DNA of 64,000 nucleotides from Campylorhamphus procurvoides (Eukaryota; Chordata; Aves; Passeriformes; Dendrocolaptidae). The stretch's first letter is position 1, and each line of letters begins with the position of its first letter. The stretch lies in assembly GCA_013396655.1 (NCBI GenBank), contig WBMV01000128.1:744001-808000 (forward strand), written 5' to 3'. Below the pieces are notes generated by a model. The model had not been told where the DNA came from, ran no database searches, and saw only the letters and a list, made by a program, of their open reading frames with translations. Both the position numbers and the translations under genes were made by a program. Positions 93 to 64,000 of this stretch are shown here, piece after piece.

Positions 93-1205
93 TTAAACAC
101 TAAGAATTGAGCACATTCCAGCAGTTCATTTAAATATGGCAGTAGCTGGTAATATCCTAGAGTTCAGCAAGATTTGATAAATCACTATCCCACTGAGCCT
201 TGGCATTCTTAAGCTCATAGATGCTACTTATGAACAGTGAAGAAATAAAAGCATCCAGAAGCCTGTGACTGTGACTTTCGAGTGTCCTTAGACTAGCTGT
301 GAATTTTTGAACAATTATTTCAAATAGTCTTTGCAGTGCTATGCAGCAGTATTTGAAAGTGGTTTTCTCCCTCTCATTAGTATAGGAAGGGCTTGTATTG
401 AGGTTAATGGTGAGTGACACTCATGCATTTATGGGGAGTGTAACAATCCGGCTAAAAAGCTAGCAATTGCTTTTTTTTTTTCCTCCTAAGGCAAACAATG
501 GATTAAGAACTTTCCTTGCCTGTGTTTTAAGAACAAAAGGGAAAGTGTCACTGAGCATTTACAAGAGGCATGATGGGGAAAACCAATTTCCTGTTCCCTT
601 CTGCTGTACTATCTTTGTCCTGTGGGGAGCAAGAAAGATCTGGTCTTTCAGACTGCAGTGTGGAAGAGTGTTATAAGTAGGACTTATAAGGACACAGCAC
701 TGCATTAAGTCCTGTGTTCATCTTAGTTGAGAATGGTTTCTAAGCTACTACAGCCCTGGTAGGTTTGTTGGTTTATTTACTGAACATAAGCTCATGTTCA
801 GCCAAATGAGGTTTTAGATCAATGAGGACTGACACTTCTTATACAGGGAAGTCACTAGTATGTTGATGAAGTCTCTGTCCATTAGAAATCACTGACTTAT
901 GTTTAGATGCCTTGATTTTTTGTTATGCAGGTGTGTACCTTTCAAAAAATACTTTGCTTTTATTTTGGTATATGTGCACACCCTCTCTTCCTCGTTCCAC
1001 TAAATATGGAATGAATATGTATCAGGTAGAGGTTCTTCAGGATTTGACAAAAAAAAACCCAAGAAAAAAAATCAGATTTCAGCTCTTCACGGGCTGATAT
1101 CGGTGAGGCATTTCTTTGCTTTAAAAAGGAATGTTTAGTTCCTTTTATTCTGATCTGTTGGAAAATACCTTTAACTTTCATAATCATTTCAAATGCCCTT
1201 TGCAG

Positions 1206-1401
1206 TATGCCTGTCTGCCAGCACGAAAAGTTATTGAAGCCAGCAAAGTTTGTCGAACCAACGTGGACTGCCAGAAGGACTTTGTTCCAAGTTTTTGTCT
1301 GACTCCTTCTTTGGAGAATCAAACAAGACTAATCAGGGTAAAACATCCACCCCATATTGACATGCTATATGTAGGACACCCCATGCATCTTCAGTACACA
1401 G
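1206..1401 (+). CDS. MBTPS2: MBTPS2 third-from-last coding exon
   Basis: The acceptor is a pyrimidine stretch ending TTTGCAG before 1206. The donor GT is at 1402, and the exon ends in phase 1. It encodes the luminal Cys-containing segment ([15 protein letters not shown]) and the conserved [15 protein letters not shown] block. Length is 196 nt, or 65 codons plus one base. Confidence 0.95.
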
Positions 1402-4400
1402 GTTGGTATTATTTATTGAAACAATTTAGCAGAAACACTCTCCAATACAGTTTCCTTTGCCTGGCTGCTTGAACAAAGTCTTGGAATGCTTGTCAGTTAA
1501 CTTGTTTAATGCAGAATCCATTTCTTGTTACAGCCAGTGGAGAGACATGGACTACTCAGGCCTAAAATGAAATGTGCACAGTGCAATGAGTTATGAAGGT
1601 AATAGAAACTATATGTGATCTGAGGTGGTTGTTTTTTCAGAAAAGTGTAAAAGGGGTATTTCTAGAACAGGTCTTACTCAGGTTAGTTATAGGAACCAGA
1701 TACCTGCATTTTGCAAACACATAAACTTCTCAAAATGCTATTGTAAAATCTCTAGGGCATCTTGCTCTATCACTTTGCCTGTAATATTAGCATCACTGCT
1801 TAAATCACACCTAAGATCCAAGTATCAGTGACAGATTTTCATGATTACTGAGCCACAAGTCTTATCACAACATAGTATTTTCCTGTTTTATTTCTTTTTT
1901 TTCATTTGACTGCCCTAAATTAAATAATATATAACAGTTTAGTTCCTTACTTTGAAATTCACTGTGTCTCATCTTCAGGCAAGCTTATATGAACTTGAGC
2001 TGCTGGACGGAGTATGAAAAGGATGAACAAACTTACCAACATCCTACTTAATACTTGAGTGGCATGGTGAAATTTAGCTTCAAATGGGCTTTCAAAGGCT
2101 TAAAGTGTTAAACTGCTATCCCTTCCTGGGAGGAACCTACCTCTTCGTCATAGACAGCTGTACCTCTTGTGGTCATTTTACTTCAGACATTTGGAAGTAT
2201 CTCCTTAGCAAGGCATTGTACTTTTCTGAATAAGCACTGAAATTAGGTACAAAAGAGCTTTATGAACAGTGATGACATCTGGTAGTGTAAAGCCATTAAC
2301 ATTCTTGCATAATATATTTTTAGTTCATCTGTCAGTCTTTATCTTTTTGTGCTGGTAATTTGATACTCTGCAAAGAGTTATTTATTTCAACTTTTTTACA
2401 ATATACCATCATTTAAACCCCAGAGATCATCTCTTCATTTGTAATTTCTGGCCTCTTGCCATTTAAAAGGAAAACATTGTGATATCAATATATTTGATGA
2501 CATGTATTCCAAGTGCAGCAACATATTTTAAGAATAGAGTTTTATAACTATATAGAACTCCTTTTCTTGGTCTCTAACAATACAAACTATCGGTACTGTA
2601 GAACAGTTGATGTTGTTCTCCTTTCCAGTATTTTGGAGCAATGAAGTTTTAGTCAGTGTTTCCTACTGAACAGTAATTTTGCAAAAGAATTGAACCTGTC
2701 AATCTATCAGAAGTCAGAAAAGAATGTTATTGCATCTTAAAAGGTAGTTATACTTTAAGAAGTTACTGTGTGAAAATACTCTTTACGTACACATCTAAAA
2801 GCTTGACTTTATTACAAACTTCGCTGCAAAGACAAACAAGCATATGTTGTTCCCCTTGGAAAAACATCAGAGCTAAAATTATAGGATCCTGGCTTGGGCA
2901 GCAGGTAATCTACTGTACCATCATAGAGTTTCATGCATTCCAATGAAACAACTTCTAAATATTTCAGACTTAACTTTGTACTGCACAATGCTGGCTGGGG
3001 CCAACAGGTTTGGTGTGGCTTTTGGGTTTGTTTTTTTCCCAAATGGGACAGACCAGCATGTGATAACCATTTCTTTCCAATTAAGAAAGGAAGATAATTT
3101 CTTCCTCTACTGTGTGTATTTTGAAATAGGAATATGTTTTAGACAAAGGCCTTATTCTTCAGTGTGATCTTTCTGCCTGCAGGAAACATTACTTTTTAGG
3201 GTGGTGCTACATTTAACACACAACATGATATGAGAGTTTCGGTAGGGTATGACCACTTTCTCTAGAAATGTCACTGAAGTAATGTTTGAATAACCTTCTA
3301 AGATTATGCATGTATTGTTTTCTACTTAGGCTTGTATTATTATGATATTCCTGATTTATGGTGAACAGTAATTATTTCATATTTCCATTTGAAGATAACT
3401 TCCAGATAACATTTTTTATGTATATCCATAATACCTACTTAGAAGTAATAATCTCTACACCTTATTTCTATTAAATGTTTCTGTTTCCTCAAATTAAAAT
3501 ATCCTAGCAAAAATATTTTTGTTGATATTGATGCATTTAGCGCTTTTTTCCAGTATTTAAAAAAACCCTGGAAAGAATCATAATCCTAAATGAACTTACA
3601 GTGCCAGAGATTTGGCCAAAACTATAAAACAGAAGGAATGATTAGGAATACATGTTGTTTGGGACAGGCACATTGATTAATCCTTTCAATTAGCATTCCT
3701 TCTGTAAAAAGTACCTAATGTAATCCAATATAAATTCATACTGTCTGTTTAAAACTTGTGGTATTACTCAAGACTTTTAAACTTTTCTTATGGCAGGCCA
3801 GTTATGCTCTAGAGGCTCTCCCTTATGTTGGACAGATGATACGTAAGGTTGAAATGGAGAGGCCCTGTCAGTACTCCCATGCAACTTTGGAAGAACTGTT
3901 TCTTCTTTATTATGTGTGAAGGTTTTCATTCCCTCATGTCATTTCTGATACTGCAAAATTTTTGCTTCTTTCTCTGGCCCTTGTTGGTTAGAAAGACTCT
4001 GGTGACTAAGATTCATATTTGGAACTTGCACTACTTGAAGAAATATCATATCCCTCAATGTTATTATTGCCCATCAGGGATCAAAAGCTGCAAGATTTCC
4101 TTCATGAAAAGAAGATGGAACTTACCTAGGAGATGATTGCCCTGAACTAGACAAGTCTACTACTTCTGTTGTATCTGAGTTTTCTTAAAACAAAAACCAA
4201 ACCAAAACAAAACAACCAAACAAAAAAAGAAAAGAAAAAAAGCCATTTCCTGGCTTTGGGGATGTTTTATGAGCAACAACAGCCATAACCCATGATGATG
4301 GTCTTTCTAGTACAGCTTGGTTTCTCGGTATTTCCATGCTTGTTTATCACTGAGGATAGTCCTTCTTTGCTTTTAACCGATATTTAAATGATTACATGTA

Positions 4401-7400
4401 TAGTTCTTCTGGAGACCACACAGAAATATCTCGTGCTATGCAGTCCATTTCTTCCATAGCATACATGCCCTTTCCCCCATGAAGAAGTTTTGAAAAGCTC
4501 TTTGGTCAGCCTAGGCTCCCAGTCACTTCTATTTAAAATTGTGTCTGTTGTGCATTCTTCTCAATATTTGCCAACACCATCTAGCATTAGCCAACAAAAG
4601 AAATGTTATTTCCAGGTCAAAGAATTGTATAATTAGAGCAAGAAAACAATGACTGTTTTCTCTGACCCGGGATCATTGCTGTTCACCTCTTCCCAGCAGT
4701 ATCTTTTTGAAGACAAGCCTAGAGAACATAATTTCTGTAGTTCTTTTGTTATTTGTCAGAGGACAAATTTGTCTACTGCAATTAGGTTTAATCTATTACA
4801 ACCACTAAATTCATTGCCTCATATTACAGTGTCTAGAACTCAGTCCACCAACTTCCTGAAGAGTTTCTTTGTGTTTGGAATTTGCTTCAGTAGCAAGGTT
4901 TGGAGGTTGGTGGCTGTTGGTGACAACAATTTGTTGTAACAAAGAGGGAAGAAGATTAGTGATCCATTCTCAGTGTTGGCACAACTTCAGGTTCAGGTTG
5001 GTGACTTAGTGGCCGTTAGGTGTTAGTCAGGAGGCAGGCAGGTTTTTAAATTACAGTATATTGCAGTGTGTGTCTTTTGAAACCTTTGGATACACTGGAT
5101 GCCTCAGTCATTTTCTTATTTTGGCTCATGAACAAGAGGTCAGATCAGATATTCTGATTTCAGCCTTCAGCATGAGGAGTTAATTGCTTTGGATATCACT
5201 TGACCTGGATGTACATATGTAACAAAAAAAACCTGGGTAATGACAGGCTGGAGAGCAGCCCCACAGGAAGAGATCTGAGTGTCTTGGTCAACAGCAGGTT
5301 GAATATGAGTCAGCAGTGCCCTGGAAGCCAGGGGGGCAACCATGTCCTGAGGGGCATCAGGCACAGCATCTCCAGCCAGTCAAGGGAATTGTCCCACTCT
5401 GCTCTGCACTGGGTGGCCTCACCTTGGATATTGTGTGCAGTTTTGGGCACTACAATATAAGAAAGACATTAAGCTATTGTAGAGTGTCCAAAGAAGGGCA
5501 ACGAAGATGGTGAAGGGCCTTGAGGGGACACCATTTGAGGAGTGACCAAGGTCACTTGTCTTGTTCATCCTGGAGGAGACCTTATCATAATCTGCAACAT
5601 CCTAATGAGGGAAGGCACTGATCCCTGTGGTAAGCAGTGACAGGACCCGAGGGAATGGCCTGAAGTTGTGTCAGGGAAGGTTTAGGTTGGATATCATGTA
5701 CCAGAGGGTGGTTGGGCACTGGAACAGGCTCCCCGGGGAAGTGGTCACAGCACCAAGCCTGACAGAGTTCAAGAAACACTCAGATGATACTCTCAGGCAC
5801 ATGATGTGACTCTTGGGTGGTCCTATGTAGGGCCAGGAGTTGGACTCGATTATGCTTGGGAGTCCCTTCCAACTTGGGATATTCCTGATACTACCAAGAC
5901 ACTTGTGTGATGATTCTGTTCCTTTTATTCCAATAAAAAGACCTGATCCCTGAAGCTGTGGGTCAGGTTTCTGTCAGCCCAAACCCTTGCCTGGCAGGCC
6001 CACCTTCAGCTCTGTCTGGAGGGCTGGGCCAGTGGGTGGAGAGGGCTGTTTCTGTTTGGCTGGTGCTGGGCAGTTTCTGCAGCTGCTGCAGGGCAGTTTC
6101 TGCAGCTGCTTCAGGGCAGCTGAGGAGGGGCTGGGGAACAGGAACAGCTCAGGGATCAGATGGGCCAGTTTCTTAGGGCTGCTACTGTGGCGGATCAGGT
6201 TCAGATAGACTGGTTGGGCTGTCTGAGCGTGAGATCAGGCCAACGCGTTCCTGCCCATCTCCAGAGAAACGCCTGTGGAGAGAAGAGGTGGCTAAGTGAG
6301 ACGCAGGGACTCTCCTTCACAGCAGGGTCCAGAGCTGGCAGAACTGACCACCATGGGTGGAGCTGGTGGCACACCTTGGTTAAGGTGAACACCTGCACCT
6401 CGAGGCACCAGCCAGCAGGGAGATTCCTTCAGGCAGGTTCAGTGGTCTGCAGCAGATGCCAGTGCGTGTCTTGCTTTTTACAGCAGTATTGTCCCCCACT
6501 CTTTCTCATCCTGACCTGTTGCTCAGAGGGCCTACTCTTGTCCAGGCAGGCACAGTTTGACCCAACACTGGCTCCAGTCCAAGCAGGCTCCCCAGAAGAA
6601 GACCCAGGAATTAAGAAGCCACTTAAAGCTGCTGACCGCAGCAGAAACCTCAGCAGAGTTTTTTGGACAACCACTAACTCACTGCTGCACAGCAGCCTGA
6701 CTAAAAATGCTTCATGGCTAAGAGTGGCCTTTGAAGGAAGCAGGGGGCATGGAGGAACCGATGACTCACCGTTTTCTTTCACACCACCAGCAGATTGCAA
6801 TAGAACACAACAATATCCCGAGTGGCACAGCAACCAGGACTATCACGATGCCTATCATACAGCCTGCTCCATTACAAAAAATACTTTCAATGTTCTCCTT
6901 GGGTTTGGGAATATGTGTGCGCATCTCTCTAGCCAGTTCTGCAGGAGCAATTCAAAGTGTTAGCCCATCATCTGCACCATTGGTAAGCTTGCAGCATGTT
7001 TGATACCACCAGAACATTGTTTCTGCCCAGTGGTGGTGCCTGGAGACACATTCCCACCCTTTGGGACAGGTTATCCCTCTGAACTAAACTCAGGTGGTCA
7101 GGAGTGCACAGAAAGGAGCACCATTACTTGATCAGTCAGGCTTTCAGGAGACATAGACAAAATCCATCCGCGCAGCAGGCAATGCTATCTGCAACTCTCC
7201 CTCCCTGGCCAGCTCCCACACCCCAAGGGGATGGAGTCAGGCCCTCTCAGGAGACACTCAAGCTGTGCTCTCTCCATCTGTCTTTTCTCGAGCATGTGCA
7301 CCCCTCGTAGCTGCTCCCAGGTTTCAGGACATGTCTTGCACTTAGGGACCCCAGCAGGACTGCTCAGTACCTGAGTGCTTTGTATCCATATGAGGAGGTT

Positions 7401-10400
7401 TTTTGGCATTTCCATTGTGTAGTCCTCCAGGCTTTAACAGCACTGCCAAAAAGCAGAGACAGGTAAAGTCTCAGATGGGCACAGAGAATGCAGGAGAATG
7501 GGGAGATTCCCTCTAGGTTTGCTGCCCAGTGTGGGAGCCAGAACACTGTTCTGGACCTCAGGTTAGAAGAAGAATCCCTCTCTGGGCTGCTGTTGCACTT
7601 TGGACCTCGGTACTATGGGCAAGCTCTGGGATGAAGCTGCAGTGGGAGCTGCATTTGTGCAAGAGTCCCATTTTTCATCATCTGTGGAATGTGATCCACA
7701 GGTCTTGAACCCAACACACTTCCAGCTTGGCTGCTGATGTGACGTGCAAGAGCAGGCACTGGGGAAGACTCATCCTGATGGCTGACACCAGCTGACCACA
7801 GGACAGCAATTGCCTGGCTGTGCCAATGGCTGGCATTGGCTGTCGAAGGAGCAACTCGCTTTTCACTTGGAAGGAAGATTAAAATGTAAATGCTCCATCC
7901 TCCGACTAACTTACCTGTGGGCTCATGCTTTTGCTTGAGAACTCGAACTGGCCGAGATTTCAGCAAGCCGCCAACATTGAGATCTTAAGGAAAATTGCTC
8001 ATTAATAAACTCTTGACACATTGTTGATCGTTATTCTTTCAGAGAAAGGGACATTGAGAACTTACCTTCAGGCTGGCCCAAGGGCTCCAAACCATCTTTT
8101 TTCCAAGCTGCCAAAGAATCTTTTAGAGAAGCAGCTAGAAACAAGCACAGAGAAATGTTTCCATTGCATGTTGGGGTCTTTTGCCTTTGTGAACAGAGGC
8201 ATTGAAAGGGGGTCAGGTAACTGGGAGCCAGATATCACTGACATGACCTGGGCACCTCTGAGCTGGCAGCGCAACACTTTTAAGGCAACATGCAACACCC
8301 TGGAGGAGCAGGTGAACCCTTGGGACTCTCTATGAGGGCGCTCGCACAGAGGAAACCCTCACTAAAGCACTGTAGGAAAAAACCATCACCCATGCTTTTC
8401 AGTGAGAAGACCCCACTGGCCCAGGAAAGGCTGCACTGGTGCTGCCAGCTTACCTGCTTCCCGCAGTTGCCCTGGAGCAGCCTGGGCAGCCCTGGCATGC
8501 AAGGCTGTCAAAAGGATAAGGAGGAGGTGGTGGACGAGGACCATGGTCCCCCTCACACTGTTCTGACGCTGCTGTCACTGCTGCTGCAGTCAGGGAAAGA
8601 GGCTGAGCAGTCAGTTCTGCAGGCCAGTGAAGCACCTTGGGGCTCTGTGACCTCACGTCCCTGGAATGAGCTGGGGCAGGGCTGTGTGAGGAGCTGCCCT
8701 CCCAAGCAGGAGAGTATATCCCACAGGGCAGCCCTCTCCAAGGGCCAGGACACAGCCCACCCCCCGTGCAGGATCAATTACACCTTCAGCAAGTTTGCAG
8801 ATAATGCCAAGCTGAATGCTGCAGTTGACACACCTGAAGGACAGGAAGCCAGCCAAAGGAACCTGGACAAGTTCAAGAAGGAGAACCCATGGGAACCTCA
8901 TGAGGTTCAGTAAGACCAAGTACAAAGTCCTGCACCTGCTTCAGGGCAACCCTCAGTATGCAGAAGGTTGTAGTGTCTTCTTGGTTAACTAGTGTAACTT
9001 TTAAAATAAGGCTAAATGGGTATTTTAGTAAAATCTTGCATTTAGTTGAATAAATTTGTGTGTAGAATAGACATCAAGGAAAAGTATTTTTTGTTTGGGT
9101 TTTTTTGCAGTTCGACTATTTTTTTTACTCTAGTGGCTTGCTACTAAATACTGCCAAACACCCAGTGTTTCAAAGATCTTCCTAGCTGTATCTCTGATAG
9201 GCTCATCGTACCGACCTTCTAGAAATAGATTAGATACAAGGAAGAAATTCTTCACTAAGCATGGTGAGGCACTGGAGCGGAAGTGGTGGATGCCCCATCC
9301 CTGGTAGTATTCAAGGCCAGGTTAGGTGGGGCTTTCAGCAGCCTGGTCTAGTGGAAGGTGTTCTTGCCTGTGCCAGGGAGGTTGGAATTAGATGATCTTT
9401 AAGGTCCCTTCCAACCCAAACCATTCTGTGATTGACTTGGATGCCTCTGACTTTGAGCTGGGTAGTGTCTTGGATTTCTGTCTGTTGTGTTCTTCACTCA
9501 GTAGTCCAACAGATTTGTTTTCTCTAAATTAAAGATCAGTCTTAAGCTGTAAGAGATAACTTGACTTTCAAGCACAGTGGCAGTTTTGGTACGGGAAAGT
9601 TCGCTGCTTGTTGCCATATCAAACCATTCTTTTTTGGGGACTCCTTGTTATACATTTCTCTCCATCCCAATGGCACAATTCCTGGCAGGACTTATCAGAA
9701 GGGCATCTATTAATGAAAGAAAATTTGTTCACGTGATTGAATGGACCAGTTCTCTGCCTTATGTGCCTTTGGAACCACTTTCCCTCACCTTTGTTTACAT
9801 GTCCTTGAATTCTTTATTGAACATGAAGAAATCTGATCTCACTCTTAACTAAGGTACATTTAGCAGCATTTTTGAATTTGAATAACATTTCTGGTATGTT
9901 ATGTTTCCAGTGTTCTCTTAGCCTACAGTTTTAAAATTTCTCTAAGCGTGGGTTAAATTGTTTCTTTCCCAAGGGATGCTTATATTGAGTGGGATTTGAA
10001 CTCTTGCTTTCACATATCTCTGTGGAGGTGGTGTTTCTTATAGCTATAGCTTTTTCCCAAGTCGGTAGGGAAAATTCAGACCATTTTGGCTGGCAACTCA
10101 CATCCTAAGATATTCTTTAGGAACAGAGAGACTATTGTTGGTACTGTACAAGTTTATTCTAATTCTGCCTTAATTTACATTAAACTCTTCCTTCTGGGGA
10201 TAAGATTCTGCTGTACCTTCAGTAGTAGACTTTTAGTAGGAAAGGTGTCTTTCTTCCAGCTGTCATAGAACTAAGATTTCCAAATGGTCCCTGGTACTGA
10301 CAGACTCAGTCTACTGTTTATTTTGAAAGACTGCAACCAGACATTTTATGAGACGACCGGGATAAAGCATCCCCATGCACTCTGGCAGGTCTCAAGCTAC

Positions 10401-12863
10401 CTCACTTCTCTGAAGAATCTCTCAGAAACATTTGACATGCAGTCAACTGAACCCTCATGTACACCTTCAAAGAACAGTGTGTAGAGTAATAAAGTATTTC
10501 AAGATCATGTGGTGCTTGACACTGCAATTTTTCAGTCACTATTTATAGGAAGGATGCCCCCCCAGTCCCACCCCCCAGGTTTTTAGGTTGCACCAAGTTA
10601 TATCTTAGAGTCACTTATCTGAACAGAGGAGAGAAGGTACTTAGCTACTGGCCTAACTGGTGGTGTGCAGTGGAGCTGTGCATCACCTCATAACCTTTGC
10701 TTTCTTAGAGGGACTCCAGAATTCTGCTCACCCATCTGCCTGCCTCCTATACACCAGGAGCCCAGCCTCAGGTCAGGGTGAGCATTTGCAGGTAATGCAA
10801 GAGAAGAATTTTTGGCCTTCAAAGAAAATAGATATGTGCACCCACGGTATACATGTGGACTGCATATGTTGAAAAAGTCTGGTAACTATAATCCCTTTTC
10901 TTTGAAAAGAAGACAGTGGGGTCTTTATGACTATAGATGCCCAGTTGCCTCTGAAAATATGTACTTTAGACCTAGTTTTACTGAAATACTAATAGTATTT
11001 TATAGAGTGATTTTACTATGATAGTGGCTGTGTTTAAGAAAGATGTAATGACTGTACTCTTGTGAAAACAAAAAATCCAAGCAAACCCATATTTAGATTG
11101 GTTTTTCCTCCTTGAAGAAGGTCATTTCACATCTGATGTATCTGCAAAATTATAATCTAAAATTCATAATGTTATAACCCTGGAATGACTTTTCATGCTT
11201 TGTGTATCTTTATATTTTCATTTCAGTAAGTCTCAGCAGTTTTGTGCCACGACAAAACTTCCTAAGCATCGATCTGCCTGTGGTGATAGAAACATTTTGC
11301 AAGTATCCTTTAAAGTATGTTTGTTCTTTTAAGGCAAGAAGAGAAATGTGTAGAATTTAGTGAACTAGCAAAATTTCAATTGGGTATCATTTTAGACAGG
11401 AAGCGTGAAATATTTCTGTAGAGTTTTGACATCTTTATCTCATCTCTGCATTGATTATTATCCGTGTGCCAGGCTCAGTCTGAGATCTCTCACTTTCTTA
11501 TGCTTAACAATATATTTTTGGTCAGTGCTTTTTTTAACTCTTGAAGGTGAGCCTTAACAAATGTGCCGAGAAAGTCAAAGTAAGTCTGAATTTACGACAG
11601 GACAAATAAGATGTTCTTGCTAGCTTTGGTATGTCAGAGTTTTATCATTTTGGTGTCATTATACTGAACTAAATAACAGGGTATGGTTGTTCTTTTTATT
11701 TTTTTCTTCAACAGAAGAGAAAACTATATTCACAAAGCAGGATAATTCAATTAACACATGCTTATTAATGAACAAGATTATATATATTTGCATACATAAA
11801 GACTAATAGGCTTGATTATGGCTAATCTAAGGACCCTTAGCCTTAGAAACTGAAATGTTTATGTGTGGCTATAGAACAATGAAACTATAGTTCAGTGCAG
11901 TCCATAGAACTAGAGCAAAGATACAACATAAGCTCCCTTCTTCTGGAAACAGAGCAAGGTTCACACTGCCCCAACTACTTTCTGAGTCACATCTTCTTGT
12001 CTGGCCATTTAAGATGGAGGTAGGTATTGCAGCTAGCAAGTCCTTACCAGCATTAAGAATTGTCTACCCATGCCTCATTCTCACGTGCACACACACGTAC
12101 AGAAGTACAGAAATACAGAACCTTTTCTGGCTAACAGGTAAGTAGGAGGGAGAGATAGGCCAGATTTCCAACTATATTCTAGTCATTTACTAGGGAGTGT
12201 TTTGGAAAATATTCCTAATCATGATTTCATAGTTGGGTCATAGGTCTAGAATACCTTCTTACTTCAGGCGTGGTGTCAGAGCTATAACCTTCCTTCAAAA
12301 CTACACAAAGCAAGGGAGGAAGATGGGCAGCATCTAGTGTGAGTTTACTGTCTCCTGCTTTTATTTAAAGTGTGAAAAGTATCCAAACAGGTTAAGTACC
12401 CAAACCTAGCGCTTAAAAAAATAAAGATCTACCCAGGCAATTCTCTGAGCAGGTATGTTATGGTGTAAGACTCATTTTACTCATATAACTTCTGTGAAAT
12501 GGAATGGTAGCTAAAAAAATAACCCTCATATGTTTCTCTCTGCATACTAGAAATAATATTATTATGTATGCTTTGTATATATATTACTTTTTTTACATTT
12601 CCTTGGATATTATTCATGAACCTTAACTAAAGTCAACCAGGTACCTAATCTCACTATCAGGAGCACTGGCAGTTATCAATGCTGTACCCTGCTTCGCTTT
12701 GGATGGTCAGTGGATATTAAATTCATTCCTTGAAGCCACACTGAGCTCCCTGATAGTAGAAAAACAAAACAGAGAACTTGTTGGCTTTTTAATTTTGCTT
12801 GCTGGTAGTGCACTTTTGGCTGCCAATGTTGCACTGGGACTTTGGATGGTGACAACACGGTAG
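1206..12863 (+). CDS. MBTPS2: MBTPS2, site-2 protease, C-terminal part (three exons: 1206-1401, 11227-11302, 12641-12863)
   Basis: Membrane-bound transcription factor site-2 protease is a polytopic zinc metalloprotease of the Golgi. It makes the second, intramembrane cut in SREBPs and ATF6 after site-1 protease. The joined exons give the C-terminal 164 residues and one stop. Recognised blocks are ACLPARK and VCRTN, then [24 protein letters not shown], and FALDGQW followed by ALGLWMV near the end. Counting back from a 519-residue human-length protein puts the Asp of LDG at 467, the known third zinc ligand. The HExxH exons lie upstream, outside the window. Phases agree at both junctions (phase 1, then phase 2). 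The 9,825-nt intron hosts an antisense gene and several CR1 copies; the second intron is 1,338 nt. No frameshift or lost key residue is seen in these exons. Confidence 0.96.
1402..5224 (+). other. MBTPS2 intron, unique AT-rich DNA
   Basis: No exon, RNA gene or clear repeat is seen apart from the A-rich tract at 4186-4241. Confidence 0.6.
4186..4241. repeat. A-rich low-complexity tract
   Basis: A run of A with scattered C and G (AAACAAAAACC type units) in the large MBTPS2 intron. Confidence 0.85.
5225..5885 (+). mobile_element. CR1 copy, 3' part
   Basis: Contains the CR1 order of motifs: a GAGAGCAGCCC-like word, GGGCACTACAATATAAG, a run near GTCCAAAGAAGGGCAACGAAG, GGTTTAGGTTGGATAT, and GTCCCTTCCAACTTGGGATATT. 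It diverges from younger copies. Its 3' end lies about 40 bp from the nested gene's poly(A) signal. Confidence 0.88.
5924..5929 (-). terminator. Poly(A) signal of the nested antisense gene
   Basis: AATAAA on the minus strand (TTTATT on +), about 255 nt after the nested gene's stop and just before the 3' end of a CR1 copy. A G/T-rich stretch follows on the minus strand. A + strand AATAAA lies at 5932-5937, so the site is symmetric. Confidence 0.6.
6068..6124. repeat. 23-bp tandem repeat in the nested gene's 3' UTR
   Basis: Two adjacent 23-base units (6068-6090 and 6091-6113) differ at one base and are followed by a partial third. The unit opens GGGCAGTTTCTGCAGCTGC. It lies between the stop codon and the poly(A) signal. 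Confidence 0.85.
6182..6272 (-). CDS. Nested gene exon 6: cytoplasmic tail and stop
   Basis: A long pyrimidine tract ending CTCCACAG leads into 6272. The exon supplies the third base of a split Arg codon and then [19 protein letters not shown] and a Ser/Pro-rich end. The stop TAG is at 6184-6182. Confidence 0.8.
6182..8544 (-). CDS. Complete nested antisense gene for an unrecognised small single-pass membrane protein (six exons, 186 aa)
   Basis: Six minus-strand exons (8454-8544, 8066-8134, 7915-7983, 7371-7442, 6770-6938, 6182-6272) join into 561 nt: 186 codons and a stop. Every junction is GT-AG and frame-compatible (phases 1,1,1,1,2). The product has a signal peptide (about 1-22, AAQA before the cut) and a basic ectodomain (about 23-121) with no Cys and no N-glycosylation sequon. 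CNGAGC (122-127) then precedes one membrane span (about 128-152). The 34-residue tail opens with CERKRR and holds several Ser/Thr-Pro-type sites. The start is in a strong Kozak context (A at -3, G at +4). A poly(A) signal lies at 5924-5929. It sits antisense inside an MBTPS2 intron and its body is GC-richer than the intron around it. I do not recognise the family; function unknown. An extra in-phase exon between 6939 and 7370 is not excluded. Confidence 0.82.
6770..6938 (-). CDS. Nested gene exon 5: juxtamembrane segment and transmembrane helix
   Basis: The acceptor is TTGCTCCTGCAG before 6938 and the donor GTGAGT starts at 6769. The exon is 169 nt and is entered in phase 1, left in phase 2. 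It encodes [19 protein letters not shown], then FCNGAGC, a span rich in I, V and L (about 25 residues) with a central Pro-Leu-Gly, then CWWCERK. Five Cys, all those in the protein, fall in this exon. The hydrophobic run followed by basic residues fits a type I orientation. Confidence 0.84.
7371..7442 (-). CDS. Nested gene exon 4 (ectodomain, 72 nt)
   Basis: The acceptor is CTGCTTTTTGGCAG before 7442. The donor is GTACTG after 7371, weaker than the other donors. It encodes [18 protein letters not shown], basic and rich in Gly and Pro. Phase 1 on both sides, so it could be skipped or joined without changing frame. Confidence 0.74.
7915..7983 (-). CDS. Nested gene exon 3 (ectodomain, 69 nt)
   Basis: The acceptor is TTTTCCTTAAG before 7983 and the donor GTAAGT follows 7915. 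It encodes [18 protein letters not shown] and HEPT, strongly basic. Phase 1 on both sides. Confidence 0.8.
8066..8134 (-). CDS. Nested gene exon 2 (ectodomain, 69 nt)
   Basis: A strong pyrimidine tract ending TTTCTAG leads into 8134, and the donor is GTAAGT at 8065-8060. Only one of the three frames is open, and it is the one dictated by exon 1. It encodes [19 protein letters not shown], probably amphipathic. Phase 1 on both sides. Confidence 0.8.
8454..8544 (-). CDS. Nested gene exon 1: start codon and signal peptide
   Basis: ATG is at 8544-8542 within GACCATGG. The exon encodes [19 protein letters not shown] and then [12 protein letters not shown]. That is a hydrophobic core followed by a small-residue A-x-A cleavage site, a typical secretory signal peptide. 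The donor is GTAAGC (8453-8448) and the exon ends in phase 1. Confidence 0.82.
8545..8770 (-). promoter_or_regulatory. Presumed 5' UTR and promoter region of the nested gene
   Basis: GC-rich DNA lies between the nested gene's ATG and a CR1 fragment. On the + strand it holds TGACCTCA at 8648-8655, one base from a CRE octamer, followed by CACGTC. There is no clear TATA box. The transcription start cannot be placed from sequence alone. Confidence 0.35.
8771..8960 (+). mobile_element. CR1 fragment (ORF2 end / 3' region)
   Basis: Matches the CR1 words AGTTTGCAGATAATGCCAAG, GGAACCTGGACAAGTTC, TGGGAACCTCATGAGGTTCA and TCCTGCACCTGCTTCAGGGC. It lies just upstream of the nested gene's promoter side. 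Confidence 0.82.
9222..9434 (+). mobile_element. CR1 3' end
   Basis: Contains AAGGAAGAAATTCTTCAC, GATGCCCCATCCCTGGTAG, GATGATCTTTAAGGTCCCTT and CCAACCCAAACCATTCTGTG, the canonical CR1 3' end. It is separate from the fragment ending near 8960, so it is a different insertion or a copy with an internal loss. Confidence 0.92.
9435..11226 (+). other. MBTPS2 intron, 3' part
   Basis: AT-rich, without a supported gene or repeat. Short open frames here have no splice context. Confidence 0.6.
11227..11302 (+). CDS. MBTPS2: MBTPS2 penultimate coding exon
   Basis: This 76-nt exon follows a TTTCAG acceptor and ends at AA before a GTATCC donor (11303). It encodes [19 protein letters not shown] and the start of the next membrane segment. 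A better-looking GTATGT donor lies about 12 bases downstream, but using it would break the frame into the next exon. Only the 11302 end rejoins as K-Y-L-I-S-L-S-G. Confidence 0.93.
12641..12863 (+). CDS. MBTPS2: MBTPS2 last coding exon with LDG zinc-ligand motif
   Basis: The acceptor is AACCAG before 12641 and the stop TAG is at 12861-12863. A second AG at 12659-12660 looks like an acceptor but would lose YLISLS, which belongs to the family. The exon carries [12 protein letters not shown], with the catalytic-site Asp, and two hydrophobic segments, ending in WMVTTR. Confidence 0.96.
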
Positions 12864-25002: not shown

Positions 25003-25306
25003 TTGGAGAGGGACTTTTCACAAGGGCACAAAGTGACGGGACAAGCAGAAACGGCTTTAAGATGAAAGAGGACAGGTTTGGGTTATGTAATAGGAAGGAA
25101 TTCTTTTCTGTGAGAGTGGTGAGGCCCTGGCACAGGTTGCCCAGAGAAGTTGTGGATGCCCCATCGCTGCAAGTGTTCAAGGCCAGGCTGGATGGGACTT
25201 TGAGCAACCTGACCTAGGGGAAGGTGCCCCTGCCAACAGCAGGGGTTGGAACTGGATGATCTTTAAAGTCCCTTTCAACCCGAACTATTCTAGAATCCTA
25301 TGATTA
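25003..25306 (+). mobile_element. CR1 3' end
   Basis: Runs from GGAGAGGGACTTTTCACAAG through GAGGCCCTGGCACAGGTTGC and GATGATCTTTAAAGTCCC to a terminal AGAATCCTATGATT. A 5'-truncated CR1 in + orientation. Confidence 0.93.
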
Positions 25307-38679: not shown

Positions 38680-39215
38680 TTCCCCTGTACTCAGCACAGG
38701 TGAGGCCACACCTCGAGTGCCGTGTCCAGTTCTGGGTCCTTCAATTCAGGAAGGACACTGAGGGGCTGGAGCGTGTCCAGAGAAGGGCAACAAAACGGGT
38801 GGAGGGTCTGTAGCACAGGTGTCCTGTGAGGGGCAGCTGAGGGAGCTGGGGCTGTTCAGCCTGGAGAAGAGGAGGCGCAGGGGAGATTTTATGGCTCGAC
38901 AACCCCCTGAAAGGAGGGTGTAGCCAGGTGGGGGTCGGTCTCTTCTCCCAGGTAACCAGCGATAGGACAAGAGGACAGTCTTCAGGGGAGGTTTAGGTTG
39001 GAAATTGAGGGGAATTTCTTCACGGAATGGAGTGATTACACATTGGAATGGGCTGCCCGGGGACGTGCTGGAGTCACTGTGCCCGGAGGTGTTTAAGGCA
39101 AGGCTGGATGTGGCTCTGAGTGCCGGGTCTGGCTGACAGGGGGGTGTCCGGTCACAGGGGGGCCTCGATGATCTCACAGGTCTTTCCCAACGTAACAGAT
39201 TCTGTGATTTTTTGC
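38680..39215 (+). mobile_element. CR1 copy directly upstream of the SMS CpG island
   Basis: Contains GGTGAGGCCACACCTCGAGT, GCGTGTCCAGAGAAGGGCAA, GTTCAGCCTGGAGAAGAGGA, GGATAGGACAAGAGG-like words and a terminal ACAGATTCTGTGATTTT. GC-rich for a CR1 copy, probably a young subfamily or one sitting in GC-rich surroundings. Confidence 0.92.
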
Positions 39216-41397: not shown

Positions 41398-42071
41398 GAT
41401 CATAGAATGGCCTGGGTTAGAAGGGAACTTAAAGATCAGCTAGTTCCAACAACCCTGCCATGGGCAGGGACACCTGCTAGACCAGGTTGCTCAGAGGCCT
41501 ATCCAGTGAGGTGTTGTACAAGCTGGCCTTGAACACCTCTGGGGATGGAGCATCCACTGCTTCTCTGGGCAATCTATCCAGTGCCTCACCACCCTCACAT
41601 TAAAGAATTCCTTCCTAGTACTAAGCCTCTGTTTGAAGTCATTCTCCCTTGTCCTATCACTCCAGGCCCTTGTAAATAGTCCCTCTCCAGCTTTTTCATA
41701 AGTTCCCTTCAGGTCCTGGAAGGCTGCAATTAGGTTACCTCAAAGCCTTCTCTTTTCCAGGTTGAACAATCCCAGTTTTGTCCAGTCTTTCCCCATACAA
41801 GAGATGCTCCATCTTTCTGATCATCTTGGTGGCCTCCTCTTGGGCCCTCTGGACTCACTGCAGCAGATCAATGTGCTTCCTGTGCTGGGGATGCCAGAGG
41901 TGAACACAGTATTCCAGGCGGGGGCAGAGGACGGGGCAGAATCCCCACCCATGACCTGCTGCCCACACTGCTTTGGATGCAGCCCAGGACAGTTGGTTTC
42001 TCAGCTCTGAGTGCACATGGCTGGGTCATGTTCAGCCTCTCATCCACCAGCACCCCCAAGTCCTTCTTGCC

Positions 42072-52400: not shown

Positions 52401-54848
52401 AGCAAAGAAATCTGCTGCTGAGTGATGAACAGGTTGAGGAGTCTTTCAATCTGTTGAAAACAGGCCAAATGTGGCACAAGCACTTCAGTTTTCCAGTCTG
52501 TTTTTCATCTTACTACTGTCTTGCAGCAGCTGTGGAAGTGAAGTGGTCTAGGAGTTAGTTGCATACTAGTTCAGCTTGGGTTTCATGCTATTTTACTGTC
52601 CTGGAAGGGTATGGGATGCATTATTAAACTCAGTTCTTGTTTAGCACTGTGGTGACTTAAGAAGTAAGGAAGGGATGGAAATGAGTACGTGTCTTGAAAG
52701 AAGTGAAGGAGAAGGTAAAAGAGTGGGACAAGGAAGCAAATGCCAGGCAGAAAGAGTGGATCACGTGTCTAAAGTGACAACAATTGATCATGAATGTACT
52801 GACCTCGGAGCCAGAATCTGCAGATTTAAGGTGAGCATTGCAAAGTTCTCTTGTCAGTGCAAAGCTGCAAAGATTAGAACCCATTTAAGAACCGTGGCTC
52901 TTAATTATGGCCCCATTTCATCTATGCTTTCGATGTCTGAAAAACACCATTGGCTTGATTGTTGGGTAGACAAGCTGTGTACTCTGAGTCTGAATTACTG
53001 TCTGTGCCTTGGTAGTACCTGATGCTGGATAGGAAGCCTGGAAACTTACTGGCACAAAGGATGCAGAATTTTACAAGAAGGTGAAGGGGGAGGAGAAATC
53101 TTATAGTGGTAGTGGACTGTGTGTGGTGTTTCATCAGTGGTGCTACTGACTGAGAAGGGGCTAGCAGTTAAATCTCTCACTGTTGTCCAACAGAATTTAA
53201 TTTTGTTGGTTCTATTTTACCTTGATCTGCCACGTGGGGAGTCAATAAGTGAGGTGCAGAAGGTGAAAAGTAAATATGTCAGAACATGCATCAAGATTGG
53301 ATAATTTGGGCAATAAGAAGCAAAGCCTTTCCATTTTTACTAAATATCCTTGGCTAATGGGGAATTGGCTTGCTCTTGACTTTGTGTTTGAGGAAGATTA
53401 AACACTTTCTCAGTTACTTCAGTCTGTCTGGCTAAAACATCCGGAGGTAATTGAATCCAGAGTTTGCAGATGGGCAAACATACGTTTCAAGTAATCAGAT
53501 TTTTGACTTAGACTACTGTAGAGTTTCAGAGATGATAGATGAGCTGAATTTGGATTCATTTGGCATGGATTTTTTTGTTGTTGTTTCTCTGTAGCTTGTA
53601 CAGCGTGGTAGCATTCTGGAAACTATTGCTGATTATGCCTGCAGGCTACTCTTACTGGTTTCCAATGTGTATGCATTTATATGCATTTTGGAGGTGGGGT
53701 TAAGCAAAATAACTACCTTAGGAAGAGCTCTTTTACTAAAGTTGTGATGGGGAGGAACGTCTGTGCTGAAGCACTTGATTGTAAACTGTCTCCATAGTGT
53801 GGCTGTGCCAGGTGATTTCTCTGAGAGACTTTTAAATCCTGGTTCCATTACTAACATACTGCATGACCACAGTGGCTTAAATCTGTGTTTATGAGGCAAA
53901 AAAGATGATACATGCCTCACTAGGATAGCCTGTAGATAAATATTTTGTTAATCTCTTCACTGATACTGATGTGACAATCTTCCAAGTATCGTTCCTCTTC
54001 TGGCAGGTGCAGCCTAACTAGGATCCTTCGTTAACTCTCACTTTGTCAGTTCCACAATAAATAGCCGAAATTGCAACTTTTTTTGAGAAACTTGTTTGGA
54101 GAATTTTAAGTAGTTGTAATGAACAATGTTGTGGGTAGAAAAACCCTCACGAAACTGTGTACAGCAAACTTGAGGCTTCTGAAATGATTATATTCTTACT
54201 GAAGAAATACTTGTATAGACAAATCATGAGCTTGCTTCTGAAGATAATTGCCAGGGTAACCTCAGTTATTTCCAGGTGAGTTTTTGTGTGTTTTTTCTGG
54301 AGATCTCTTCCATGATGTCATGAAGATTTCAACTGGAGACCTGCCTGGATGTCAGAAAAAGCATGTGTAGGGTTAGAATGAATATGTTGGTTTGCCATCT
54401 CTGGTTTTCAGTGCCCTAGAAGTCTCCCTGTCCTACAGCTCAACATTTTTTCAAAGTTTCATGTCAGTGCTGTAGGTTTTTTGGGATTATTGTCTCTGTG
54501 TTAAGTGATTTTAAAAGTAATTATGTGAGTAGGGACTTGACTGGATTGTGATACAGTAGATGATTAGCAGTAGCCATAATAAAGGTACTTGTACTGTGTC
54601 TGTAGTAGATAACCACTTCTCTTCAGGTGTGAAAACTGATCTAAAAGAAAACTGTTTGGACCCCCATGCACTAAGAAACATTTCTGTGGATGGAGGGAGG
54701 ACAAGATACATGGTAGATGTTGTTTAAATGGTACTCAAAGAAATATTAATCCAGGCTGCCAGGAAAAACTGCTCAGCCTATCAAAAAGGGCAGAAGTGAC
54801 TTGAGTGGAAATCCCTTACTGATTATTATGTCTCTTTTAATCTTGCAG
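49421..54848 (+). other. SMS intron 1, 3' part
   Basis: Unique DNA apart from the hairpin at 50,228. A donor-like AAG/GTGAGC near 52,829 has no matching acceptor upstream. Confidence 0.5.
50228..50253. repeat. 11-bp inverted repeat with 4-nt loop
   Basis: TGTTGACTTCT and its reverse complement are separated by GTGT. A shorter perfect palindrome (GAGGAT-G-ATCCTC) follows within 10 bases. It lies in SMS intron 1. Confidence 0.7.
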
Positions 54849-54969
54849 CTGATTGCAATGCCGTTCTTAAAGCTCTACAGCCCATTTTTCAGGAGCAGGG
54901 AATGACAGAAACAGTTCATAACTGGGAAGACCATGGTTATTTAGCAACCTACATCAAAAAAAATGGCAG
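54849..54969 (+). CDS. SMS: SMS coding exon 2
   Basis: The acceptor is AATCTTGCAG before 54849 and the donor GTGAGT starts at 54970. The exon is 121 nt: two bases completing Ala, 39 codons, and AG of a split Ser. It encodes [18 protein letters not shown] and then [15 protein letters not shown]. Confidence 0.95.
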
Positions 54970-60900: not shown

Positions 60901-63841
60901 GGTAGCAAATGGAAACTATTACTATTGTTCTTAAGAACCCTATTCCACGTATTAAAAGGGCTGCTGCTAACCAGTGTTCACGAGCCATGTTCTGCCAAGC
61001 AGACAAATGTAACAAAAGCCAGCATAGCCTTTGCTCTCTGCTCATTGAAGCTAATAAGTCTTTTGTGGGTTCAGCTTTGGCCTGCTGCTACTGCCTTAAT
61101 ACTACTAGACTGGTCACTTTTCTGTGTAGACTTCTACTGTTTGCTGTGTGTTTAAATCTTTACAGGCATTTTAGCCTACTTTGGGTGTTCATTTTCAGGT
61201 ACGGGATTTAAACGGAAGGTATAACCAACCTGGATATGTATTGCCTTTGAGAATTTTGAATTTCATTCAGGTTTTTTTTTACCATAAATTAGCTGTCTGA
61301 GAATGCCAGCCAGACACTTGAAACTTGAATTTCTGTCCCACTACACTCCTTCAGCCTGGTGCCATCCATCGCTTTCCCCTCTGCCTCAGATGTCAGGACT
61401 GCTGTTCTGGTGGAAGTAACAATTTGATGGAATGAGTGATGGTTCAGCAGTGTTACTGTCTCTGTATTGTAATGCTATGATCTTAATAAATCTGAAGTTC
61501 TGTGTTGTGCTTTTCAGAGCAACTGTCCTGTCCCCTTTGCCTCTCCTTGCCTCCCACCCCAAGGCAGGGACAGTAAAATCCCCTACTGAGGAGCTCATGC
61601 CATCACAGGGGAAGTGAAGACTGTGTCAGCTGTCAAATCTTATGACAAGTATGGAATTCATGTAGGGAAGGACTTTAAAGGAAAAATTGAGTCATGGGGC
61701 AATCAGTCTGTTGCTCATGTGTGCCAACAGCAACTCCTGGAATATGGGAATAAAATAATTAAAAGGTTTTTGAACAGTGGAAACACTTCCATGCTGTACC
61801 AGTTTTCAGGGAATTTAATAACGGTGCTGTCTCATGAACTGCATATACTCAGTTGGGCTGTAGTGTCACAGCTCTGAGGGCCTGGAGCATGTCTACAGAC
61901 TTGACAAGAAATGTCCCTTTTCACTATGAATAGTTGTGTCTAAAATGTGCTGGAGTGACCAGTACTTCCATCTAGAGAGCTCTACTCTGTCTTTCTCTCC
62001 TTTGGGAAAAAATCCACAAAAGATTTTACCTCCTGGAGTCTTGCAGTGAAGCTGTTTGTTCTTATGCTGCGCTGTGTGTGGGAGGTTTTTTTTTGTTTGT
62101 GGTGTTGGTTTTTTTGTTTTGTTTTTTTTCTGTTTAATGTTAGCCACGTTGCAAAATAGATTGATTGATATGAAAATTATGTAAACGGAGTCCTGGTAGG
62201 TTTTTGTGTTCCCTAACCAAAATCCCTTGTTGTGAGGACACCTTGTGGGCCAGCACTGGGATGGAGAGAGGATCGCTCGAAGATGGTGACAGTCTGTGGA
62301 CACTGGGGAGAGGGAAGCAGGGTGAGCAAGTGTCTGTTGTATAGAAACACCTTTCCTCCTGAAGGCAAGACTGATGTGCAGAGTCCTGAGGAAAGCCTCA
62401 GCCTTCCCAGACTCATCTTTCAAAGAGAAGTGGGTGACAGTAGTTTCACTGCCAACTGCAGATATGGCACAGCTACATTTGATCATTTTACAGTTACCAA
62501 AAATTATCATCTTCAGCTAACACAGAACACTCAGGGTTTTATCTCTTGACTGTAGCTAAGGGCCAAGGTTTCCAGCACCATGTGTTCATGCTGAGGCTGA
62601 CATTTAACAGAGGGAGCTCTGGAAAGGACTAAAAAAAGTGGGGAGCTAGGAGTTCAACTAAACTTTTTGTTATAACAGGAGTTGGTTTGTGTTTTGCCTT
62701 TGAGGCTGAGTGGGGTGATAAGAACAAACAAATAAAGGAGCATTCAGCCTTATCTGCGGTTTCTCTGTGTTTTACTAATGAACTTCTATCCCTGGATACC
62801 ATTCTTTCCTTACTCAGCTGTTCCTGTTCTCATCCCCTCTTCTGCTCTCTTTTTTCTCCGTGTGTTTCTCCCTCCCTTTATGTAATCCCCTTGTAGCCTT
62901 TCTGTTTCTTTTTGTCTTCTCCCTAGTCTGGAAAGGATATTGCCTCTGGTGCACTGTTTCTATGTTCTTGCGCCCTTCCCCAATATAGTTAGCTCTTGTT
63001 TTGTTTGTTGCAAGTTCTCCATGGTCCACTGCTTGTTTACCAAACACTGAGCATGGTGAAGCCCTGATCTTTGGTCTTTAAAAGCTTCTATAGTAAAAAC
63101 GGTAGTAGTTTTGTCTACCTTGCATCTGTATTCATGAGAGTGTGCTACTGCAAGTTCTTCACCAGTCAAAGCCATGGTTTGCTCCAGCATGCTTATTGTT
63201 TTTTCACTTAAAAATTTTGACTCAGCTCTGAATGTGAATAGTGTTTCTAAATACATGCTGTAAAGTTAAAAAACCCAAACCACTCCAACAACCTCCTTCC
63301 CCCCNNNNNNNNNNNNNNNNNNNNNNNNNNTCAGAAGGAAATACATAGATGAAGTAAAGTCTCCAGTTATTTTCTTAGGGGTGGATTTCAATTGAAAAGC
63401 CCAAACCAACATAACACAGCTGTTCCACCAGGCCTTTTTTAAAGAACTGGGACTAGTAGTTCAGCATTATTTTCTGGTTATACCATGGTTGTTATGGCTG
63501 AGGTGTCCTGTTTCACTGCTTTGCTGCCTTCTGATTTTATTAGTTGTGTAGTGATAGGCAAGTTCCTGCAACTGTGTGCTGTTTAGTGACTAGCAGAGGA
63601 CTGAAGCTGGCACTGCCAACAGTTACAGATGCTGGAACAAAAAACATGCTGTATGAATTTAATATAATTCCATTTTATATTTTCTTTCCTCAGTCACTGT
63701 GATTTTTGATAATAAATTCATCATTGCTGTCTCTCTCTCTGTTGTAGTTTTGCCAATTTGAGAATTCACCCTCATGGATTGGTGTTGGTGGATCTGCAGA
63801 GCTACAATGATCATATGAAAGGAAGAGAGGAAGTTGATCAG
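54849..63841 (+). CDS. SMS: SMS, spermine synthase, coding exons 2 and 3 (54849-54969, 63748-63841)
   Basis: Spermine synthase transfers an aminopropyl group from decarboxylated AdoMet to spermidine, the last step of polyamine synthesis, in the cytosol. The visible exons cover about residues 17-88 of a 366-residue protein. This is part of the N-terminal dimerisation domain (related to AdoMet decarboxylase), not the catalytic Rossmann-like domain. Recognised blocks are [21 protein letters not shown] and [18 protein letters not shown]. The split Ala at the exon 2 start (phase 1) and split Ser at the junction (phase 2) fit the human protein at Ala17 and Ser57. Exon 1 should fall in the N gap at 39233-39808 and later exons lie beyond 64,000. 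Intron 2 is 8,778 nt. Confidence 0.95.
58515..58830. other. Unexplained GC-richer block with several short inverted repeats
   Basis: Within SMS intron 1 or 2 space (intron 2), this block holds three perfect or near-perfect inverted pairs: GTGTCTACA/TGTAGACAC, TGTCTCTG-A-CAGAGACA, and GCTTCGGT/ACCGAAGC. It also has minus-strand frames of 83 and 110 codons. It matches none of the CR1 copies. It may be an old DNA transposon or a conserved non-coding element. Confidence 0.3.
62085..62131. repeat. T-rich low-complexity tract
   Basis: T runs broken by single G or GTG, in SMS intron 2. Confidence 0.8.
63305..63330. other. Assembly gap, 26 N
   Basis: A short N run follows a C-rich stretch within SMS intron 2. 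It does not affect a visible exon. Confidence 0.97.
63748..63841 (+). CDS. SMS: SMS coding exon 3
   Basis: A CT-repeat pyrimidine tract (63731-63740) leads into GTTGTAG before 63748, and the donor GTATGA starts at 63842. The exon is 94 nt, completing Ser and adding 31 codons, and ends in phase 0 at the Gln of EEVDQ. Confidence 0.95.
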
Positions 63842-64000
63842 GTATGAGTGCTGCTTGTCTTGCTAGGCTTACCCAGCTGCATGGGGAGACCCTTCTTTTC
63901 TTCAGGTCTATCAAAGTGTATCTCGGTGAGAGATTTTAAAATATTAAAATCAGTTCAAACCTAAATGTTTACGGATGAGGAACAGTGACACGTGTTGAAA

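Follow-up and report, generated by a model that had tools for sequence, protein, structure and literature searches.

Nested genes number 972 in human and 474 in chicken in one survey, which lists gene duplication among the routes by which they arise (PMC2151771). MBTPS2 already serves as a host, as mouse YY2 is intronless and lies between MBTPS2 exons 5 and 6 (PMC2724487). Here we analysed a window of 64,000 nucleotides from the passerine Campylorhamphus procurvoides (contig WBMV01000128.1, positions 744,001 to 808,000), in which a six-exon gene for a putative membrane protein lies antisense within an MBTPS2 intron. This nested gene is real and its placement right; it does not stand alone, but is most likely a copy relocated from within an undescribed family of birds. 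Taking the evidence as a whole, we consider it very probable that window positions 5915 to about 8760 hold a complete unit of this multigene family, present as a DNA-level antisense copy in the penultimate MBTPS2 intron. The window gene resembles YY2 in being nested in an intron of MBTPS2, but differs from the mouse gene in being a multi-exon, antisense gene for a membrane protein in the penultimate intron. It shares with vertebrate nested genes a position wholly within a host intron and a lineage-restricted distribution; unlike nested genes generally, it appears to be an intron-bearing DNA-level copy from a bird-only family.

The nested gene occupies 6182-8544 on the minus strand, where six exons of 91, 69, 69, 72, 169 and 91 nucleotides join in phase into a frame of 561 nucleotides, encoding 186 residues and a stop. 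All five introns are of the GT-AG type (donors gtaagc, gtaagt, gtaagt, gtactg and gtgagt; five AG acceptors), with phases 1, 1, 1, 1 and 2. The start codon stands in the context GACCATGG, with A at -3 and G at +4, and an AATAAA at 5924-5929 follows the stop by about 250 nucleotides. Exon 1 (8454..8544), which has tblastn matches from 42 of the 78 family proteins introduced below, carries the start codon and signal peptide (residues 1-30). Exons 2 (8066..8134), 3 (7915..7983) and 4 (7371..7442) are short phase-1 ectodomain modules placed by splice frame and alignment to relatives, the stretch matching exon 2 being helical in the model of relative P0001. The juxtamembrane Cys-x4-Cys and the transmembrane span fall in exon 5 (6770..6938), matched by 30 of the 78 family proteins, whereas exon 6 (6182..6272), placed by splice frame and alignment, provides the cytoplasmic tail with an acidic dileucine-like ERVGLI and the stop codon. 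Hydropathy over 19-residue segments peaks at 3.04 at residues 131-149, with a second hydrophobic stretch (1.68) at residues 1-20. The original prediction of a six-exon frame with an optimal Kozak start, a signal peptide, a membrane span and a poly(A) signal beyond the stop was thus borne out.

The same prediction held that such an arrangement is more than chance. Short open stretches flanked by GT and AG are common in any sequence, and a chance chain of them is a rival explanation; its probability is negligible, and we rule it out because the product has protein homologues that fall in a supported clade. A single-sequence protein search gave seven matches among 521 candidates, six of them covering 84-99% of the window protein with expect values (E) of 5.2e-30 to 1.3e-88; the remaining match is a remote relative from an owl. 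Identity to the window protein is 77% for Willisornis, 73% for Pitangus, 56% for P0003, 50% for both Turdus and Hirundo and 49% for Zosterops, and the alignments to these passerine relatives continue across the exon junctions. Two of these models, those of Hirundo and Zosterops, skip the module of exon 4, and that of Zosterops also ends in a different tail. P0003, which has no start, aligns to window residues 14-182 and so crosses every one of the five junctions. Its contig has 962 bases; the same exons occupy 2363 bases in the window. This contig is too short for introns and would therefore derive from spliced RNA or a retrocopy, and it is the one hint of a transcript of the passerine gene. 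Two other contigs look genomic, as their models run from exon into intron: P0039 from exon 1 into intron 1 (4344 bases) and P0076 from exon 5 into intron 5 (13412 bases).

In a tree of 27 chosen rows, where support is good for 9 of the 24 inner branches and another 9 are left open, the window protein groups with Willisornis and Pitangus (97/88). Their sister is a group of four oscine-type rows (100/98), and all seven form a 100/100 clade; the assignment of genera to oscines is standard background. Two Manacus proteins fall outside the seven-row clade and represent another paralogue line. By this topology the bird of the window is probably a suboscine, and the passerine type arose before oscines and suboscines diverged. 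Elsewhere in the tree, P0068, P0070 and P0074 (from a crane, a bustard and a 1245-base contig) constitute a divergent family branch, a 100/100 clade on a stem of 0.64.

Two profile searches with E up to 10, each scoring about 8000 candidates, returned 45 and 69 proteins, or 78 ids together. An organism name is attached to 72 of these, and all 72 are birds, among them owls, eagles, condors, storks, ibises, cranes, penguins, parrots, pigeons and passerines. No reptile relative was present among the candidates scored in the single-sequence and two profile searches, which leaves the sauropsid scope of the original prediction unsupported; that landfowl, ratites and reptiles lack the family is no more than suggested by the two profile searches. 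The nested gene is not independent, but a member of an undescribed, modular, fast-changing membrane-protein family that is so far bird-only. Hence the earlier description of an independent protein-coding gene of birds or sauropsids stands as to a protein-coding, intron-bearing bird gene and falls as to independence, given the multigene family and its copies in the same genome. Nor are databases without the gene: it is matched by five named passerine records labelled 'hypothetical protein'.

The family alignment has 30 rows, left from 46 once 16 that were fragments, fusions or near-duplicates had been removed. The window exons map onto its modules in the order signal peptide, DVGLEPLGHPG, GFPTSWPLPVLEPESNPT, VLSKPGEDHRGSVYEF and the CPQDVRRRCMIG membrane exon. 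A C-x(2-8)-C motif occurs in 36 of the 78 family proteins, fragments included, and the transmembrane exon of the window gene likewise has two cysteines before the span. A signal-peptide exon, short modules and a Cys-flanked transmembrane exon like those of the window gene are found in family members such as LOC116962373 (Tyto), LOC115337546 and LOC115337547 (Aquila), LOC127473534 (Manacus), LOC142415701 (Mycteria) and Theristicus LJ206_014466, 014470, 014479, 014480 and 014482; close locus tags on equal-sized contigs in Theristicus suggest family arrays. Bird family members and the window gene are homologous in the Cys-flanked transmembrane exon, in introns and in flanks. The window gene and its passerine clade differ in lacking four ectodomain modules and the proline-rich tail of many family members, the latter replaced in the window gene by the short ERVGLI tail, and the window gene differs further in sitting in MBTPS2. 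Because family members vary in both modules and tail, these absences would mark a subtype and are no bar to membership.

The Pfam scan found no family above cut-off in the window protein or ten relatives; NCBIfam likewise gave nothing above cut-off, and PDB nothing significant for the nested-gene family. CD2, TMEM40 and prophenin are automatic-annotation names of single relatives, some relatives having a proline-rich tail, and the likeness is in name only. CD2 carries immunoglobulin domains, and a CD2-like identity was rejected as the Pfam scan of the window protein found none. TMEM40 was rejected as the window protein has no match to PF15817, a domain that one Grus model (P0032) carries. A CD99-like protein, prompted by the short phase-1 exons, was set aside since no such name or domain appeared in the protein, profile and Pfam searches. 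Among the titles listed by our literature search none concerns this bird family, and the search gave no paper for the family locus names or for MBTPS2 combined with passerines.

Homology between the nested unit and its relatives extends beyond the exons. When all 78 family proteins were compared with the window by tblastn, matches also arose outside exons, since some relatives' models read into introns: non-passerine family models match window introns 1, 3 and 4 and extend to about 8758 on the upstream side and to 5915 on the downstream side, and intron 5 is matched chiefly by the oscine-type relative P0076. The 5' flank (8545..8758, minus strand) resembles what lies upstream in other family models and is probably the 5' untranslated region (UTR) and promoter side, while the 3' flank or UTR (5915..6181, minus strand) includes the AATAAA, with 5915-6010 matching three penguin family models. 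A 23-base tandem repeat of 2.7 copies is present in the 3' flank at 6059-6119. With P0027 as query, family copies were located in the same genome at the ends of contigs C2453 and C1452 and the start of C1743. At the DNA level these copies match the window in intron 5 (358/485 identical, 46 gap columns), intron 4 (113/145 and 56/63), intron 1 (74/104 and 51/63), intron 2 (42/51) and the 3' UTR (37/45), as well as in exon 1 (69/91) and parts of exons 2 (20/25) and 5 (41/61); no intron 3 match was found in this alignment. The exon 1 donor and both borders of intron 5 are common to the window and these copies. Such homology of introns and flanks shows a DNA-level copy and not a retrocopy. Although YY2 likewise lies in an MBTPS2 intron, a retrogene of that kind has a probability close to zero here and is ruled out by the five introns, by the homology of introns 1, 2, 4 and 5 to those of the same-genome copies, and by the lack of a zinc finger in the Pfam scan, in agreement with the prediction that the gene is unrelated to YY2.

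On C1743, family exons occupy 3-863 and EFCC1 begins at 9890 (PF15799, 2.7e-61), about 9 kb away; the linkage is read from this one contig, the other two giving no named neighbour. A GP9-like gene, with platelet glycoprotein IX as its best PDB match (2.4e-36), follows from 86208. EFCC1 is placed on chicken chromosome 12 in one report (PMC6562611). TMEM40, RPL32 and RAF1 were not found as neighbours of other family copies in the 217,505 bases examined. We also observed, at 6144-6344 of locus L014 on C2453, a family transmembrane exon interrupted by two in-frame stops, which probably belongs to a pseudogene. C2453, C1452 and C1743 all break at or near their family copies, as is expected of a tandem array unresolved by the assembly.

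MBTPS2 and SMS exons were located using human protein sequences as queries. MBTPS2 lies on the plus strand, and its 9.8-kb penultimate intron (1402-11226), followed by two coding exons, contains the nested gene in antisense as originally proposed. The exon before this intron spans 1155..1401 (left end approximate) and the one after it 11227..11306 (right end approximate), with the coding part of the last exon at 12641..12860, all on the plus strand. G+C content (GC) is 0.529 in the unit and 0.520 in its introns alone, versus 0.389 in the remaining host intron. Interspersed repeats flank the unit at 5394..5520 (recurring at 38682-38809) and 9230..9432 (recurring at 25146-25291 and 41399-41624); we take both to be CR1-like. 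No direct or inverted repeat of at least 25 bases was found in a scan of 1400-11300, and so no insertion mechanism is shown. The GC contrast, flanking repeats, same-genome copies and non-coding homology all fit a copy of the whole unit into MBTPS2, whose direction would have been from the family locus near EFCC1 and whose date would precede the oscine-suboscine split. The nested gene would then be transcribed from its own upstream region and spliced and, being wholly intronic, could be expressed without change to the mature MBTPS2 mRNA. An antisense transcript in an intron might alternatively serve as a regulatory RNA and disturb the transcription of MBTPS2, its protein being irrelevant; we regard this as very unlikely, since the coding features are complete and common to family copies on other contigs of this genome, and no MBTPS2 exon is overlapped. 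Farther along the plus strand, two SMS-matching exons at 54848-54967 and 63746-63844 indicate that the MBTPS2-SMS order is kept in this bird. This agrees with the mammalian gene order.

Several observations weigh against a relocated and functional family gene. A rise in GC, to 0.465, is likewise seen beyond the unit at 10400-10799, and of the seven clade members, all assumed to lie in MBTPS2, the window gene alone was observed there. A retrocopy could account for the P0003 contig, and the five named passerine records resemble automatic predictions. No 'LOC' (RefSeq-style) name for the passerine gene appeared among matches of the single-sequence and two profile searches, which counts against its broad expression. 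Relative to the same-genome copies, coding identity (130/177) is no better than non-coding (731/956). Over 43 codons of exons 1 and 5, from a local alignment that omits the first residues of exon 1, the NG86 method gives nonsynonymous (dN) and synonymous (dS) divergences of 0.29 and 0.60, YN00 gives 0.46 and 0.28, and intron divergence (K) is 0.30; the methods disagree, so that the ratio is method-dependent and purifying selection on residues is not shown. By these measures amino acid replacement is near the neutral rate.

Translated comparison with the family (56 queries with matches, 8 MBTPS2-type rows omitted) covers BLAST-matched stretches only, which raises identity in coding and non-coding classes alike. 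Intron 3 (295/465), intron 4 (105/193) and the 3' flank (63/96) exceed exons 2 (57/133), 3 (8/22), 4 (15/41) and 5 (381/888). The signal-peptide exon, alignable to the family in 39 of the 56 queries (672/1077 residues identical), is level with intron 3, and lower values come from intron 1 (185/416), intron 5 (9/26), intron 2 (1/5) and the upstream stretch (130/248), so that exon and intron appear mixed in this respect. The unit could be a duplicate in decay or without expression, which kept its introns when copied and still looks intact but yields no protein that matters. The like divergence of coding and non-coding sequence, the missing 'LOC' model, the differing Zosterops tail and the two models without exon 4 all favour such decay, which we nonetheless consider improbable. 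An open frame is seen in the window and in relatives' protein models on either side of the oscine-suboscine split (P0003 without its start, P0005 and P0006 without exon 4, all known as protein models), and the spliced-looking P0003 contig exists. In a neutral simulation the frame was kept in 6.0% of runs at K=0.05, 0.4% of 4000 at 0.10, 1/4000 at 0.15 and 0/4000 at 0.20; as a further reservation, this simulation uses the indel rate of intron 5 alone and ignores loss of the start and splice sites. Fast evolution of a retained frame fits these sequence comparisons best, and diversifying selection is possible.

The product is predicted to be a single-pass membrane protein of type I whose signal peptide is cleaved and whose short, mostly disordered ectodomain faces outside. 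The AlphaFold2 model of P0001 is weak (predicted local distance difference test score 65, predicted template modelling score 0.30), with a signal helix, a helix at 24-43, low confidence over most of 50-111 and a long helix at 124-169. The two juxtamembrane cysteines of the product may pair or dimerise. The window protein and 5 of 6 passerine relatives have ExxxL(I/M) in the tail, a motif like the acidic dileucine signals of protein sorting, and this dileucine-like signal in the short tail may route the protein between surface and endosomes. Having lost four ectodomain modules and the proline-rich tail, the product would stand apart from its relatives. Reading through exon 4 into intron 4 adds 10 residues before a stop, an end nearly kept in condor, ibis and owl models; P0029, P0030 and P0020 end nearly like it, whereas P0031 and P0066 diverge after the first residues. 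A soluble form by this route is conceivable. As to role, a rapidly evolving surface receptor or ligand of immune or reproductive cells is a guess. A fuller scenario, which we put forward tentatively and hold to be doubtful as a whole, is that this is the passerine branch of a receptor family born in Neoaves, in which ectodomain exons outpace neighbouring introns through an arms race over recognition in immunity or between gametes; a single copy would have left the family locus for MBTPS2 before passerines diversified and gained a distinct sorting tail, and exon 4 read-through may give a secreted form.

What is new here is a bird gene family without a Pfam entry, present near EFCC1 and, in our preferred interpretation, as a relocated nested copy in MBTPS2. 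Its passerine age, fast coding change and lack of 'LOC' models among the matches make it a good test of how surface-protein families are born and move, and of annotation gaps. Passerines comprise more than half of all bird species. If the ectodomain is truly under diversifying selection, the nested gene would belong to an unstudied recognition system in these birds.

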